From positions 1 to 59,184 of the forward strand of contig JAEEUR010000003.1 of NCBI GenBank assembly GCA_016290595.1: a stretch of DNA of 59,184 bases. Direction: 5' to 3'. Below, piece after piece: positions 33,272-40,232 of this stretch (position 1 is the stretch's first letter; every line of letters starts with the position of its first letter). A program made the translations under genes and the position numbers. The notes under the pieces were generated by a model that saw only the letters and a program-made list of their open reading frames with translations, was not told where the DNA came from and ran no database searches. The DNA is from Lachnospiraceae bacterium (GTDB lineage: Bacteria > Bacillota > Clostridia > Lachnospirales > Lachnospiraceae).

Positions 33272-33679
33272 TCATTTTTCTCCTTTGTTTAAATTATGGG
33301 AGTTATCTTCCCAAGTTTGTTCTATCTCTATATTACCTTTTATAGATTCCCCTTCCGCCGAATGGTGTGCATCAATAAACTCTGCGATGCATAATCCGGC
33401 AAACAGCATGATCAGCGCGGCAGCCACAATGACAATAATCTTTTTAAGCCACTTCTGAAAGCGCACTTTTTCTGCAATTTCAAGCGCAGGCATGATTTCA
33501 ATCTGGGTAGCAGCCATAGCCGCCGGTGTTCCGAAGCGCTCGACAATTTGATTGAAGCTCAGATTGGCGGCATCTGACAGCACGTCTTCTTTCAGCAACT
33601 TAATAATGCCCTGTGTTTGTTTTTTTGTTCCGGGCAGATATGTGGATACCTTCCTGAGATATTTGGTCAGGTCATTCAT
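33272..33679 (-). CDS. Small single-TM protein with HAAS-like N-terminus, paired with PadR regulator
   Basis: N-terminal helical region, TM LKKIIVIVAAALIMLFAGLCIA; overlaps the PadR gene end. Confidence 0.6.
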   Translation of the reverse strand: MNDLTKYLRKVSTYLPGTKKQTQGIIKLLKEDVLSDAANLSFNQIVERFGTPAAMAATQIEIMPALEIAEKVRFQKWLKKIIVIVAAALIMLFAGLCIAEFIDAHHSAEGESIKGNIEIEQTWEDNSHNLNKGEK

Positions 33680-34031
33680 TTTCTTGAATATCCTCCTTTA
33701 GAATCAGGCGAATGCCTTGTATGACTTCGTCAAACTGCTTCTGAAGGAATTCCAGATACAGAAACCCCTTTTCTTCAAGGTGGTAGTAAATATGACGAAG
33801 GCGTGACGTGGCATATTGTTCATAGGAAGTAATAAATCCGCCTTCGAGCAGTTTATAAAGTATGGGATATAAAGACCCTTCCTGCGTTATATACTTCCCT
33901 GCACTCTGTTTTGCTGTTTCCTGAACCAGCTGATATCCGTACATATCTTTCTGTGAAAGGAGAGAAAGGATAATCAGCTGCAGAAAGCCGCGTTTGTAAT
34001 TAATCGGTTCAAAATCCCCCATGTAGGTCAC
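33672..34031 (-). CDS. PadR family transcriptional regulator
   Basis: GFLQLIILSLLSQKDMYGYQLVQET...EGSLYPILYKLLEGGFITSY. Confidence 0.92.
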   Translation of the reverse strand: MTYMGDFEPINYKRGFLQLIILSLLSQKDMYGYQLVQETAKQSAGKYITQEGSLYPILYKLLEGGFITSYEQYATSRLRHIYYHLEEKGFLYLEFLQKQFDEVIQGIRLILKEDIQENE

Positions 34032-34131: not shown

Positions 34132-34218
34132 ATTCATGAACCTGTTTGTGAACGGTCTCAATCAAAGGCAATGTGGTTTACAACAAACACTATAAAACAT
34201 GGAGGAGAAGTAGATACA

Positions 34219-34867
34219 ATGAAAAAAGTGATAACCCAAATAAGTGTTTTAGTTGATCATTGCTATTGTAATGAGTATATGTATGCCCTGTAAGGTAGCT
34301 GCCTACGATCCTGATTTATTGACCTGCTGGTATTCTGACGGGTATAAAGTCGGCATGTGGATGAATACGCCCTCCTTCTCATATGAAACGTTAAGTGCAC
34401 CAGCAAGCACCTTTTCCAATTACCTTTCCACGGCTTATTCCCATGCCTGGTTAAAATGGAAACAGGGCGGGAAGAATACTACGTATAATGGTTCCACTGG
34501 AGGAACAGGCGATATACACTGCATTGGAGGAACCTATACTGAAATATATGCTCAAACAAATTATCAGTTGGATCCAGGTAGCACGGCGGCAACTGCTTAT
34601 ACGTCTTATTTCCTTTCATATCTGGATTATAACGGAGCAACAAAAGAACTCCGCACGATTCAATCTGGGGTACGGATATATTTTGCAGAACATAATTATA
34701 GTTCAACGGAGGCAACAGACCGATATAAGAATACCATGATGCACGAGTTGGGCCATGCGCTTGGCTGGTTTGGACATGCATCGTCCGGTTGTATTATGTA
34801 CGCTTATTCAAGTATGCTTACAGAGTTGTCATATAAAGATAAAGATCATATTAATCAGATCTACTAA
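34219..34867 (+). pseudogene. Secreted metzincin-type zinc metalloprotease with frameshift in signal peptide (track ORF starts at TTG 34253)
   Basis: HELGHALGWFGH (HExxHxxGxxH) plus CIMY Met-turn; GGAGGAG RBS and ATG at 34219 are one frame off the rest. Confidence 0.75.
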
Positions 34868-34911
34868 GTAAATGGAGATATATTATATCAGAAAAATACG
34901 GAGGTTAACGA

Positions 34912-35754
34912 GTGATGAAAAAAATAATTGCGGTACTCATAATGCTTATCTGCGTTTTATCTGCCTGTACTTCACAAACAGAAAAGACGGTATCTCTTTA
35001 TGACACAAAAACACATGTAGATGTGCAGATAATTGTTCGCACTCTCAACGAACTTTTAGAAACCTACCCGTTTGTGATTGAGGGGACCTGTCTGGAAAAG
35101 AATTGGGATAAGGAGCAATCTGCCTTTACGGCAAAAATTGAAGTGGAAAGAATCTATCAGGGGGAACTGTCCGAAAAGGTGATTTTTTACAAAAGTACAT
35201 ATGATGCTTTTCCGGAAGGGAAAAGGTTGTTCCTTTTCGCTCAGAAGTGGGAATCCGTTTTTACAGGAGAAGAATCCTTTACCGGTATCCCGTTGGTGGA
35301 AGGTACGCAGGGATACAGTTCAAAATATGTAGACGGCATTGAGGGCTATAACGAACAGCTGTTAGTACAGGAAATAGAACAGGGAATGAAAACGCATTCC
35401 TTCTCGGGACAGGCGGTGATCGGTGCCTACATTCATTCCGATGATGTTGAGACGATCGTGAAAGAATCCCCTTACGTAGCAGAAGTCCTGATAACATCAG
35501 TCAGGGAGGGGCTCGCAGATGACAGGGACAGAGCTGACGTGCTCCTGGTCAATGCGCTGAAAGGGGAGATGGCCGGCAGCTTTGAAGTCGTGGTGCCGAA
35601 AGGAAGCGTAAAGACGGGAGGCAGGTATATTTTGATGCTGGATAAGCCTTCCGAGACATCGGTGTTCTATATTGTTTCCTCTCGTAACAGTATTCACCTC
35701 TATAGCGCGGAAGAAGCAGAGCGTGTAATGAAGGGAATAAAAGACCGCCAATAG
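34912..35754 (+). CDS. Lipoprotein with two NTR/TIMP-like or similar beta domains (family uncertain)
   Basis: Lipobox ICVLSAC; two repeats of (F/Y)VxE...VxxxxxGE(L/M)...(K/R)xxLxL pattern. Confidence 0.6.
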   Translation: MMKKIIAVLIMLICVLSACTSQTEKTVSLYDTKTHVDVQIIVRTLNELLETYPFVIEGTCLEKNWDKEQSAFTAKIEVERIYQGELSEKVIFYKSTYDAFPEGKRLFLFAQKWESVFTGEESFTGIPLVEGTQGYSSKYVDGIEGYNEQLLVQEIEQGMKTHSFSGQAVIGAYIHSDDVETIVKESPYVAEVLITSVREGLADDRDRADVLLVNALKGEMAGSFEVVVPKGSVKTGGRYILMLDKPSETSVFYIVSSRNSIHLYSAEEAERVMKGIKDRQ

Positions 35755-35790
35755 CCGACAATAAAGTGTATATACTGAAATACCTAACGG

Positions 35791-35836
35791 CGCATGCCTG
35801 CCGGCGGGATCTTCCCGCAGCAGGCATGCGTTTTTT
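35791..35836 (+). terminator. Rho-independent terminator after lipoprotein
   Basis: CGCATGCCTG-ccg-GCGGGAtctTCCCGC-ag-CAGGCATGCG-TTTTTT. Confidence 0.9.
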
Positions 35837-36036
35837 GTGTGGCACAGGCACTTCTCCGGAATAACGATCCATGGTATAATATTATATTCAAAGACGACGG
35901 GCGCTTAAAACGATCTGCCGGGATCACATCAGCACCCGGACTGCAGTAAATGGTTGCAACAACGAAAAAAGAATGACAAAAACAAGGCAAAGAGATTCAA
36001 CAAATCTTTAATAAGATAACTATGTATCTTTTTTGC

Positions 36037-36079
36037 ACCTCCAGGTTGGTTGGCGGACCATTGGCGCCTGGAGGTTTTT
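36037..36079 (+). terminator. Terminator-like hairpin
   Basis: ACCTCCAGG (36037-36045)/CCTGGAGGT (36067-36075) followed by T run. Confidence 0.65.
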
Positions 36080-36172
36080 CTTATTCTAACGCAAAAATGT
36101 TGGGAGAAATACCCACCCCAACATTTATTTATAAAACCTTTATTATACAACCAAATTTTTATAAAAAACCTC

Positions 36173-36222
36173 TTGACATATCAGGGTTACAGTTGTAAAC
36201 TGAAGGTGGTTTATAGCTGTAG
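36173..36222 (+). promoter_or_regulatory. blaI-like promoter and operators
   Basis: TTGACA-N17-TAAACT; TTACAGTTGTAA (36187-36198) between the boxes; related dyad TTATAGCTGTAG (36211-36222). Confidence 0.8.
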
Positions 36223-36292
36223 CCCTTTTGTAAACGGCAAAAAAGGGCAGAAAAAGATACAAAAATCTCAAAAGATTCAAGGAGAACGAAAG

Positions 36293-36688
36293 ATGAGTCC
36301 TGTCAATGATACGTTACGGATCGGACCGGCAGAAAACGCCTTTGCTCAGATCGTTTGGGATCATGCGCCGGTCAGTTCGGGAGAGCTGGTAAAAATATGT
36401 AAAGAAAGGCTGCTCTGGGCAAAATCAACCACCTATACGGTCCTGCGGCGCCTGTGCGAAAAAGGGATCTTCCGCAATGAAGACGGGATGGTTGCCGTAC
36501 TGATCAGCCGGGAAGCTTTTCAGGAGGCGCAGAGCGAACTGGTGGTAGCGGAGAGCTTCCGCGGATCCCTGCCGGCTTTTATTGCGGCTTTTACCGCGCG
36601 TAAAAAATTGAGTCAGGAGGAAATCGAGCAGATCCGGCGGATGATAGAAGACGCCGGAGAGGAGTCGCCGAAAGGAGGCCGATCATGA
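36293..36688 (+). CDS. BlaI/MecI/CopY family repressor (start refined from 36050)
   Basis: IGPAENAFAQIVWDHAPVSSGELV...WAKSTTYTVLRRLCEKGIF. Confidence 0.88.
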   Translation: MSPVNDTLRIGPAENAFAQIVWDHAPVSSGELVKICKERLLWAKSTTYTVLRRLCEKGIFRNEDGMVAVLISREAFQEAQSELVVAESFRGSLPAFIAAFTARKKLSQEEIEQIRRMIEDAGEESPKGGRS

Positions 36689-38673
36689 AAAATCTGTTTC
36701 TGATACTTTTAAACATCAGCCTTTCCGCCTCGGTCGTGGCGCTTTTCGTTATCTTGCTGCGCGCCGTCTTCCGGAAGGCGCCGCGCAGTCTGATTTGCGG
36801 CCTGTGGCTGCTGGTGGCGCTTCGGCTGTTGATTCCGGTGTTTCCGGAGAGCAGCTTCTCGCTGATTCCGAAGCAGCTGGGCGACGGCAGCATCGTCCGG
36901 GAAATAAGCGGTGAAACCGCAGAAAAACCTGATCAGATGGTCGTTTCGCAGAACAGCCCGTATCAGGAACCGTTTTGGACGCAGTACAATGCGTCGGGAA
37001 ACAGGACGGATCCCCTGCCGGAACAGCCAGGCCAGGTTTCTTCCGCAGAAAAGCAGCCGGCGGCTCAAAATCCCGTGACAGAGCCGGGAAAAACAAAGGT
37101 GGAAATCCTGACGGCTCTGTCAGCAGTGTGGCTGGTCGGCGCGGGGCTGATGCTGCTGTATACGGTGTTCAGCTATCTGCACATCTGGAAACAGACAAGA
37201 ACCGCCGTCTGGCAGGGCGAAAACGTCTTCCTTTGCGACGCGGCAGCCTCGCCTTTCCTTTTCGGGCTGTTCAGGCCCAGAATATACCTCCCCTTCGGGA
37301 TGAAGGAAGAGGCGCGGGAGTGCGTGCTGGCGCATGAAAAGGCACACATCAGGCGGATGGATCCGTTCTGGAAGCTGCTGGGCTTCCTGCTGCTTGCGCT
37401 GCACTGGTTTAATCCGATCCTCTGGCTTTCCTTTGCCCTGTTCAGCCGGGATATCGAAAGAGCCTGCGACGAGCGGGTGATCCGGAACGCATCTCTGGAA
37501 TACCGGAAGACGTATTCCGCCACGCTTTTGTCTGTCGGCGCGTTCTCACGGAGTCTGCGTGCCTGCCCCCTGGCTTTCGGCGGACTCAGTGTGATGAGCC
37601 GCATCCGGGCGGTCCTGAATTATCGGAAGCCGTCCTTCTGGCTGGTCTGTCTGCTGGCGGTGGGGATGATCGTTGTTTCGGCAGGCGCACTGACGAATCC
37701 CAAAGGAAATGAAGGGGAACAAATCCCGGCGGAGAGTGTTCCGGAAAGCACAGAGGCGCATCGGGTCTCTTCAGACGATGCAAATTCGCTCCCGGATGAA
37801 AGGGAAGCAAAAACAACACAAACACCGAGCGAATCTCTGCCGCAGTCCGATTCACCGATCATTACGATGTCGTATATACGGTATACCCCGGAAGAGGCTA
37901 TGGCAAATGCCACGCATATTATTAATGCGAGGTACGAAAAAAAAGAAATATACGGGTGGCACGGATATCAAGGGTATTACTATGTTTTTGAGCCGGTAAG
38001 TATTATTAAAGGGACGCTGGAAGAGAGTGACAGAAAAAAGATAATTGTTGTTCCAATCATGGAAACGATTGATGACAATAATATTGATAAACAGGACCCG
38101 TTTGAACCCGGTACTCTATATTTACTCTGCCTTGAGAAACACAAAGGGGTTTATAGTGAATATAACAAATATTGTCAGTTGAGCAAATGGACGGTTTCAG
38201 AAAAGGATGAGGACTGGAATGATTATCAAAATAAAGCATTAGTGATTTCAAAAGACACAAATAGTACGCCAGATTATTATGGTACGCCCTATACAGAGTC
38301 CCAAAATGTGAAAGAAATAGCAGATTATGCCACCGCTGTTTTTGTAGTAAGGATAGATTCTGTCTTTACAGAAGGTTACATTAGCCCGACAACAGTATAC
38401 AGATGTACGGTTACAAAGACCGTTCGCAACACACCGAACAACGGAGGCAAAATCCTGATAACGCTTTTTGACAATACTGTTCAAATCGGCGAAGAATACC
38501 TGATTCTTCTGGCAGAAGTCTCGGAAAGTTCAAAAATTTATGCCCTGGCAGCCAGAGAAAACGCGGTCTTTTCTCTGGAAGAAATCGCAGAGAATGCTGC
38601 TATTGCGGAGCTGTATGCACAGGCAGAAGAATATACAGCATCTGAATCCGGGACAACGGTCCCCGATCCGTAA
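36685..38673 (+). CDS. BlaR1-like M56 metalloprotease sensor with C-terminal extracellular tandem beta domains
   Basis: ECVLAHEKAHIRRMDPFWKLLGFLLLALHWFNPILWLSFALFSRDIERACDE (HExxH M56); ATG overlaps blaI end. Confidence 0.88.
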   Translation: MKNLFLILLNISLSASVVALFVILLRAVFRKAPRSLICGLWLLVALRLLIPVFPESSFSLIPKQLGDGSIVREISGETAEKPDQMVVSQNSPYQEPFWTQYNASGNRTDPLPEQPGQVSSAEKQPAAQNPVTEPGKTKVEILTALSAVWLVGAGLMLLYTVFSYLHIWKQTRTAVWQGENVFLCDAAASPFLFGLFRPRIYLPFGMKEEARECVLAHEKAHIRRMDPFWKLLGFLLLALHWFNPILWLSFALFSRDIERACDERVIRNASLEYRKTYSATLLSVGAFSRSLRACPLAFGGLSVMSRIRAVLNYRKPSFWLVCLLAVGMIVVSAGALTNPKGNEGEQIPAESVPESTEAHRVSSDDANSLPDEREAKTTQTPSESLPQSDSPIITMSYIRYTPEEAMANATHIINARYEKKEIYGWHGYQGYYYVFEPVSIIKGTLEESDRKKIIVVPIMETIDDNNIDKQDPFEPGTLYLLCLEKHKGVYSEYNKYCQLSKWTVSEKDEDWNDYQNKALVISKDTNSTPDYYGTPYTESQNVKEIADYATAVFVVRIDSVFTEGYISPTTVYRCTVTKTVRNTPNNGGKILITLFDNTVQIGEEYLILLAEVSESSKIYALAARENAVFSLEEIAENAAIAELYAQAEEYTASESGTTVPDP

Positions 38674-39344: not shown

Positions 39345-40232
39345 ATGGATTACACGTCGGTCAGAGAAACAGCAGAAAAATGGGGGATCACGGAACGGGT
39401 CGTCCGTGGATACTGCGCAGACGGAAGGATCGAGGGGGCCTATCTGAAGGGAAAAACCTGGAATATCCCGGAAAATGCAGAGAAACCGGCCCGAAAAGAA
39501 AGGCAGCGGCTGATCCCGGCAGATCTTCTCGGTCGGCTGCGGCTGGAAAAGGAGCAGGGAATATCCGGCGGGATCTATCATAAGATCCAGATCGAGATGA
39601 CTTATAATTCAAATCATATGGAAGGCAGCTGCCTGACACACGAGCAGACACGGTTCATCTTTGAAACAAATACGGTCGGAGTAACGGACGGGGACGTCCG
39701 TGTGGACGATATCATAGAGACGGTAAACCATTTTCGCTGTATCGACGCCGTGATCGGGTGGGCGGAGCGTCCGCTTTCTGAAAATATGCTCAAACAGCTG
39801 CACCGGATGCTAAAAACCGAAACGGCGGACAGCCGGAAAAAATGGTTCGCCGTTGGAGAATACAAACGGGTAGTGAACGAGGTCGGCGGCCTGCCTACGG
39901 TTTCGCCCAGGGAGGTGCCGGCAAGAATGAAGGCGCTGATGGCAGACTATCGGTCTCTGCATAAGCCGGAACTGGATGATCTGCTGGAGTTTCATTACCG
40001 CTTTGAACGGATCCACCCCTTCCAGGACGGAAACGGCCGGATCGGGCGGCTGATCCTGTTGAAAGAATGCCTGAAAAACGGGATCGTTCCGTTTATCATA
40101 GAAGACGAGATGAAATGGTATTATTACCGCGGACTGCGCGAATGGGAAAAGGAGCGCGGTTTTCTGCGGGAGACCTGTCTGGCGGCGCAGGACCGCTTCC
40201 GGGCCTGGATGGAATATTTTGAACTGCATTGA
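39345..40232 (+). CDS. Fic family protein with N-terminal HTH
   Basis: HPFQDGNGRIGRL Fic motif; SNHMEG inhibitory motif; N-terminal helix-turn-helix-like segment. Confidence 0.92.
   Translation: MDYTSVRETAEKWGITERVVRGYCADGRIEGAYLKGKTWNIPENAEKPARKERQRLIPADLLGRLRLEKEQGISGGIYHKIQIEMTYNSNHMEGSCLTHEQTRFIFETNTVGVTDGDVRVDDIIETVNHFRCIDAVIGWAERPLSENMLKQLHRMLKTETADSRKKWFAVGEYKRVVNEVGGLPTVSPREVPARMKALMADYRSLHKPELDDLLEFHYRFERIHPFQDGNGRIGRLILLKECLKNGIVPFIIEDEMKWYYYRGLREWEKERGFLRETCLAAQDRFRAWMEYFELH

Follow-up and report, generated by a model that had tools for sequence, protein, structure and literature searches.

A 59,184-nucleotide (nt) stretch of Lachnospiraceae DNA (hereafter the window; contig C13 of a 2.3 Mb rumen metagenome-assembled genome, MAG) carries, in a row, genes for a secreted matrixin-like metzincin, a lipoprotein composed of two units with a predicted TIMP/NTR-like OB fold, a BlaI repressor and a BlaR1 receptor whose ectodomain presents the same kind of tandem units. 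The anatomy and homology of this locus are secure. As to its function, we favour, with evenly balanced confidence, the explanation that the metzincin and the lipoprotein form a tandem version of the Mtz-Tim module described in Listeria, and that the separate BlaR1 with its Tim ectodomain most likely keeps Tim binding and signals. An earlier note on this DNA, made from the sequence alone, had named the same four genes in this order, and the motifs, the lipobox, the Pfam matches and a structural model all bear it out.

The metzincin open reading frame (ORF; 34253-34867, + strand) displays the HExxHxxGxxH motif as HELGHALGWFGH together with the Met-turn CIMY, and profiles link it to relatives; against Pfam it matches Peptidase_M10 at E=5e-5, slightly short of the gathering score, and it has no evident pro-domain. 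The ATG at 34219 has a good Shine-Dalgarno sequence and lies in a reading frame different from that of the ORF; the metzincin frame is thus interrupted within its signal-peptide region. The lipoprotein gene (34915-35754, +; lipobox VLSAC) starts ~45 nt after the metzincin stop, a gap that suggests it has no promoter of its own, and the metzincin-lipoprotein unit ends in a rho-independent terminator (35789-35832, +; z=-6.1). The mature lipoprotein contains one cysteine besides the lipidated one. It found no match in Pfam, and its profile likewise matched no sequence in the PDB. Single-sequence self-comparison, which is blind to such internal repeats, detected none in the lipoprotein or in BlaR1, and profiles were therefore needed. 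With these, hhalign aligned lipoprotein unit 1 (35032-35319, +; ~residues 40-135, delimited by AlphaFold2 model and hhalign) to unit 2 (35407-35700, +; ~residues 165-262, delimited by AlphaFold2 model, profile and alignment) at 1.6e-7. Within the lipoprotein group, conservation is highest at the motif YIHSxDxxxI (35428-35457, +), which is made up of invariant alignment columns and falls in the inter-unit linker.

AlphaFold2 models built from shallow alignments (6 and 7 rows) place both proteins in the same structural class. In the lipoprotein model (predicted local distance difference test score, pLDDT, 68.6), each of the two units consists of one helix and about five strands, and the closest PDB structures identified by Foldseek are agrin NtA (TMt 0.67), the PCOLCE1 NTR domain, TIMP-1 and the meteorin NTR domain. 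For the BlaR1 ectodomain (model pLDDT 61), the matching structures are tandem-OB proteins, agrin NtA, TIMP-2 and TIMP-1. Foldseek assigned a probability of 1.00, with best NTR/TIMP E-values of 1.4e-3 for the lipoprotein and 4e-5 for BlaR1 and TMt values of up to 0.67, on models of moderate confidence. These searches support the NTR/TIMP-like OB fold proposed in the earlier note on both predicted models, which are not fully independent because the BlaR1 model alignment held lipoproteins. The likeness to TIMP-1, agrin NtA and the PCOLCE NTR domain lies in the predicted OB/NTR fold of both window proteins; unlike TIMP (PF00965) and NTR (PF01759) proteins, however, the window lipoprotein is bacterial, lipid-anchored and tandem, and shows no sequence match to these families, no TIMP cysteine pattern and no free Cys1.

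BlaR1 is the textbook beta-lactam sensor. In the window, the blaI promoter (36173-36200, +) has a BlaI-type operator, GTTACAGTTGTAAAC (36186-36200), overlapping its -10 region, and is followed by the genes for BlaI (36293-36688, +; Penicillinase_R 1.8e-23) and for BlaR1 (36685-38673, +), which bears an M56 protease domain (HEKAH; Peptidase_M56 2e-46, residues 7-291). M56 receptor, BlaI repressor and TACANNTGTA-type operator thus follow the BlaR1/MecR1-BlaI/MecI scheme, whereas tandem Tim units occupy the place of the penicillin-binding ectodomain. The Pfam scan found M56 as the sole domain of BlaR1 and no transpeptidase (penicillin-binding) domain, and the NCBIfam blaR1 model covers residues 184-317 only. 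Homology to the lipoprotein is carried by ectodomain unit 2 (38230-38619, +): its Smith-Waterman score against lipoprotein unit 2 is 59, versus 28.5 +/- 4.9 in shuffles (0/500 reach it), hhalign aligns the two at 5e-8 (unrelated controls, 0.2-0.45), and a profile of ten lipoprotein relatives, from which BlaR1 was excluded, matches BlaR1 at 38290-38586 with a genome-wide E=4e-6. Unit 1 (37870-38229, +) shows a weak sequence match, and its OB-like shape comes from the model only. The claim of the earlier note that the BlaR1 ectodomain shares the fold of the lipoprotein and lacks a penicillin-binding domain is hence confirmed, most firmly for unit 2.

Listeria monocytogenes secretes a metzincin, Mtz, that is paired with a TIMP-like lipoprotein, Tim, and cleaves it near residues 49-55; the two sensitise the cells to phage lysins and penicillin, both being needed for the phenotype, and similar pairs occur on mobile elements in Bacillus, Clostridium and others (Boichis et al. 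2021, PMC8235301). One Lachnospiraceae pair shares 54% and 38% identity with a Listeria pair, whose origin was confirmed through L. monocytogenes records (a matrixin followed by a hypothetical protein) and which may not be the copy that was examined in that work. A profile that pools 27 single-domain partners of other genomes, one of them from Listeria, places the window lipoprotein and the ectodomain of BlaR1 ahead of 98 other ORFs; with Listeria Tim included, it reaches the window lipoprotein (P0002) at 1.2e-4, and hhalign does so at 2e-6. On the strength of this homology, the window pair belongs to the Mtz-Tim kind, as a diverged member with tandem domains. The two systems share the order of metzincin and TIMP-like lipoprotein, homology through family-level pairs and links to mobile elements, and differ in the two units of the window Tim, in the BlaI-BlaR1 pair with a Tim ectodomain that adjoins it, and in the lack of an XRE switch in the window. 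The tandem-domain Tim is new, and the tandem form is largely confined to this genus and to genome G173 (G- and L-numbers are working labels for genomes and loci). By homology, the lipoprotein is likely the binding partner of the metzincin and, by analogy with Listeria, probably its substrate. The alignment suggests that the position of the YIHSxDxxxI linker may be comparable to the pre-OB segment near the Listeria Tim cut, and the window pair may cleave and sensitise as its Listeria counterpart does.

To follow the pair beyond the window, we used a genus sample of 16 genomes and a family sample of 15 inspected metzincin loci in other genera, which leave out the weakest metzincin-profile matches (long frames, E >5e-5). 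The congeners are Lachnospiraceae MAGs and include RUG10682, RUG13475, RUG13928, RGIG2725 (goat omasum) and UBA6987; the RUG records we take to be of rumen origin. Within the genus, 6/16 genomes have a metzincin gene or what remains of one, at seven loci in all, and the gene directly downstream is in every case that of a tandem-unit lipoprotein, whether complete or a remnant. In the other genera, 13/15 loci have, just downstream of the metzincin, a lipoprotein or membrane-anchored protein of the Tim kind with a single unit; one of the remaining two has the partner upstream in broken form and the other (G383) is an exception, for an overall adjacency of 14/15. For five of the family loci, the metzincin profile was the sole means of discovery, and the genes beside these metzincins nevertheless come first in the Tim profile search, ahead of 98 other ORFs. 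Metzincin-Tim pairs also occur near tail-like genes on a clostridial-type phage contig (L116), and on two actinobacterial prophage contigs (L118, L119; all host types as judged from sequence), where the metzincin has a long N-terminal repeat region.

The relationships of the BlaR1 ectodomain point away from its immediate neighbour. Over ~240 residues it shares 33% and 36% identity with the lipoproteins that partner the metzincins of G010 and G012 (sister species), with which it groups in the tree (support 100/99), and it is farther from the adjoining window lipoprotein (27% over 95 residues). A literature search for BlaR1 together with TIMP found no paper in the library searched. The genome of the window contains several BlaR1 units, and only the one adjoining the metzincin-Tim cassette was found with a Tim ectodomain. 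Its paralogs (L002-L009, L018-L024) have varied, unrelated ectodomains, often very long (the longest ORFs >1000 amino acids), with no Pfam transpeptidase domain in the three tested, and several come with their own BlaI and a different promoter dyad, such as TTTATCGGTGATAAA in L020 and GTCTATCTTTGATAGAC in L024.

Tim ectodomains extend to a second class of receptor. Anti-sigma factors of extracytoplasmic function (ECF) sigma factors in G005 and G014 have ectodomains that share 85-87% identity with the lipoprotein paired with the metzincin of G013, and two anti-sigma-like proteins of the window genome carry other Tim ectodomains. The anti-sigma label rests on position after an ECF sigma gene plus a single membrane span (G005, C81) or on likeness alone (C24), and no Pfam anti-sigma domain was found in these candidates. 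At L016 (3914-7128), successive genes encode an ECF sigma factor, an anti-sigma-like protein whose ectodomain is a tandem of Tim units, and another Tim-like protein. On the tree, the anti-sigma label must change at least twice, and in the G013/G005 group the Tim domain appears to have been exchanged between lipoprotein and anti-sigma factor, in one direction or the other. Exchange of Tim domains between lipoproteins and proteolysis-activated receptors is a new observation. Such ectodomains could be generic OB/NTR binding modules for unrelated ligands (cell-wall or lipid fragments, peptides), with a kinship to metzincin partners that is ancestral only. This alternative, to which we give about one chance in three, gains from the unrelated ectodomains of the BlaR1 paralogs, from the frequency with which Tim-like proteins stand alone and from the presence of Tim-ectodomain anti-sigma factors in genomes with no detected metzincin, and is countered by the fact that both nearest relatives of the BlaR1 ectodomain partner a metzincin or its remnant.

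A comparably probable alternative concerns the lipoprotein itself. Tannerella potempins are lipoprotein inhibitors encoded beside KLIKK metalloproteases. The likeness to the window pair consists in the adjacency of a lipoprotein and a metalloprotease gene; potempins are Gram-negative proteins, and none was among the 50 fold matches listed. The window lipoprotein could, like potempins or TIMPs, be a membrane-bound inhibitor or immunity protein against its own metzincin, with BlaR1 as a functionally unlinked neighbour. The TIMP-like fold and the lack of an evident metzincin pro-domain agree with this, as does the state of the genus loci: the metzincin is broken or fragmentary at 6/7 (frame-broken, shortened or remnant copies at window 34219-34300, L037 6493-7131, L038 2381-2614, L039 2976-3443, L066 6750-7000 and L067 4815-5160) and the adjoining lipoprotein intact at 6/7, a pattern that an antidote would be expected to leave. 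Few loci enter this decay count, however, and the genomes are MAGs. Furthermore, the lipidated N-terminus of the lipoprotein leaves no free N-terminal cysteine for chelation of the TIMP type, and what is reported of Listeria Tim is its cleavage by Mtz rather than inhibition of Mtz, with both proteins required for the phenotype (PMC8235301).

The third alternative, a chance neighbourhood in which a decaying mobile metzincin-Tim cassette landed beside one of many blaI-blaR1 units, fits the separate terminators and promoters, the broken metzincin frame and the ties of such pairs to phages and mobile elements (L116, L118-L119; PMC8235301), and is nevertheless improbable in our estimation given that the adjoining BlaR1 itself has a Tim ectodomain, the sole one found among the BlaR1 units of its genome.

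In the explanation that we favour, the matrixin-like metzincin would be secreted and co-expressed with a membrane-anchored TIMP/NTR-fold lipoprotein, and BlaR1 would have taken its ectodomain from another Tim lipoprotein lineage. The Tim-type ectodomain would bind as Tim does, either metzincins or the ligand of released Tim; the receptor may thus sense the protease or that ligand. The trigger would be engagement or clipping by the cell's own or a neighbour's metzincin, or by whatever Tim binds, upon which the M56 domain would cleave BlaI and open the promoter with the TACANNTGTA operator. The anti-sigma factor RsiV, a lysozyme receptor, is an earlier case in which regulated proteolysis is set off when an ectodomain binds a secreted enzyme (PMC4183432); it differs in its DUF4163/DUF3298 domains and its ligand, and BlaR1 uses its own M56 protease.

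Several observations weigh against this explanation. The blaI-blaR1 genes form a transcription unit apart from the metzincin and lipoprotein genes, with a promoter of their own and a strong terminator between, and the search for a full BlaI operator upstream of the metzincin yielded only a lone, weak half-site-like GTTTACAA (34176-34183, +), 36 nt 5' of the metzincin ATG. The window holds three copies of GTTTACAA versus 0.64 expected, two of them in the blaI promoter (36186-36235), and the copy before the metzincin is a suggestive but weak indication of a regulatory link; a genome-wide operator scan (3 mismatches) performed no better than a reversed-pattern control. The BlaR1 model is of modest confidence and its alignment included lipoproteins. 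The metzincin is decayed in most congeners, and the frame break in the window may be a true mutation or a MAG assembly error. Many Tim-like proteins in the family have no adjoining metzincin, and in G005, G009 and G014, which have Tim ectodomains or lipoproteins, no metzincin was detected. Finally, BlaR1 with a Tim ectodomain was found in 1/16 genus genomes, that of the window. The co-occurrence proposed in the earlier note thus stands for metzincin and lipoprotein and does not stand for the trio with BlaR1.

The region is flanked by genes for a PadR regulator and a DUF6120 membrane protein (window 33272-34031, -) and for a Fic-domain protein with an N-terminal helix-turn-helix (window 39345-40232, +), and an Rfam scan of 33-40 kb of the window gave chance matches only.

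Together, these results indicate that the little-studied Mtz-Tim pair reaches across the Lachnospiraceae and into phages, with a Tim partner that lies outside any Pfam family, and that a TIMP-like domain is common to Tim lipoproteins and to receptors that signal by proteolysis. More tentatively, and with rather lower confidence than in the favoured explanation itself, we suggest that Tim domains may have been repeatedly installed on BlaR1 and ECF anti-sigma factors, so that rumen Lachnospiraceae might detect their own or competitors' metzincins or the ligand of released Tim. A ligand-binding part resembling a protease inhibitor provides a concrete candidate ligand for a non-antibiotic BlaR1. 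If the pair is linked to the BlaR1 regulon, surface proteolysis would be tied to cell-wall defence, since Mtz-Tim sensitises Listeria cells to penicillin and lysins.

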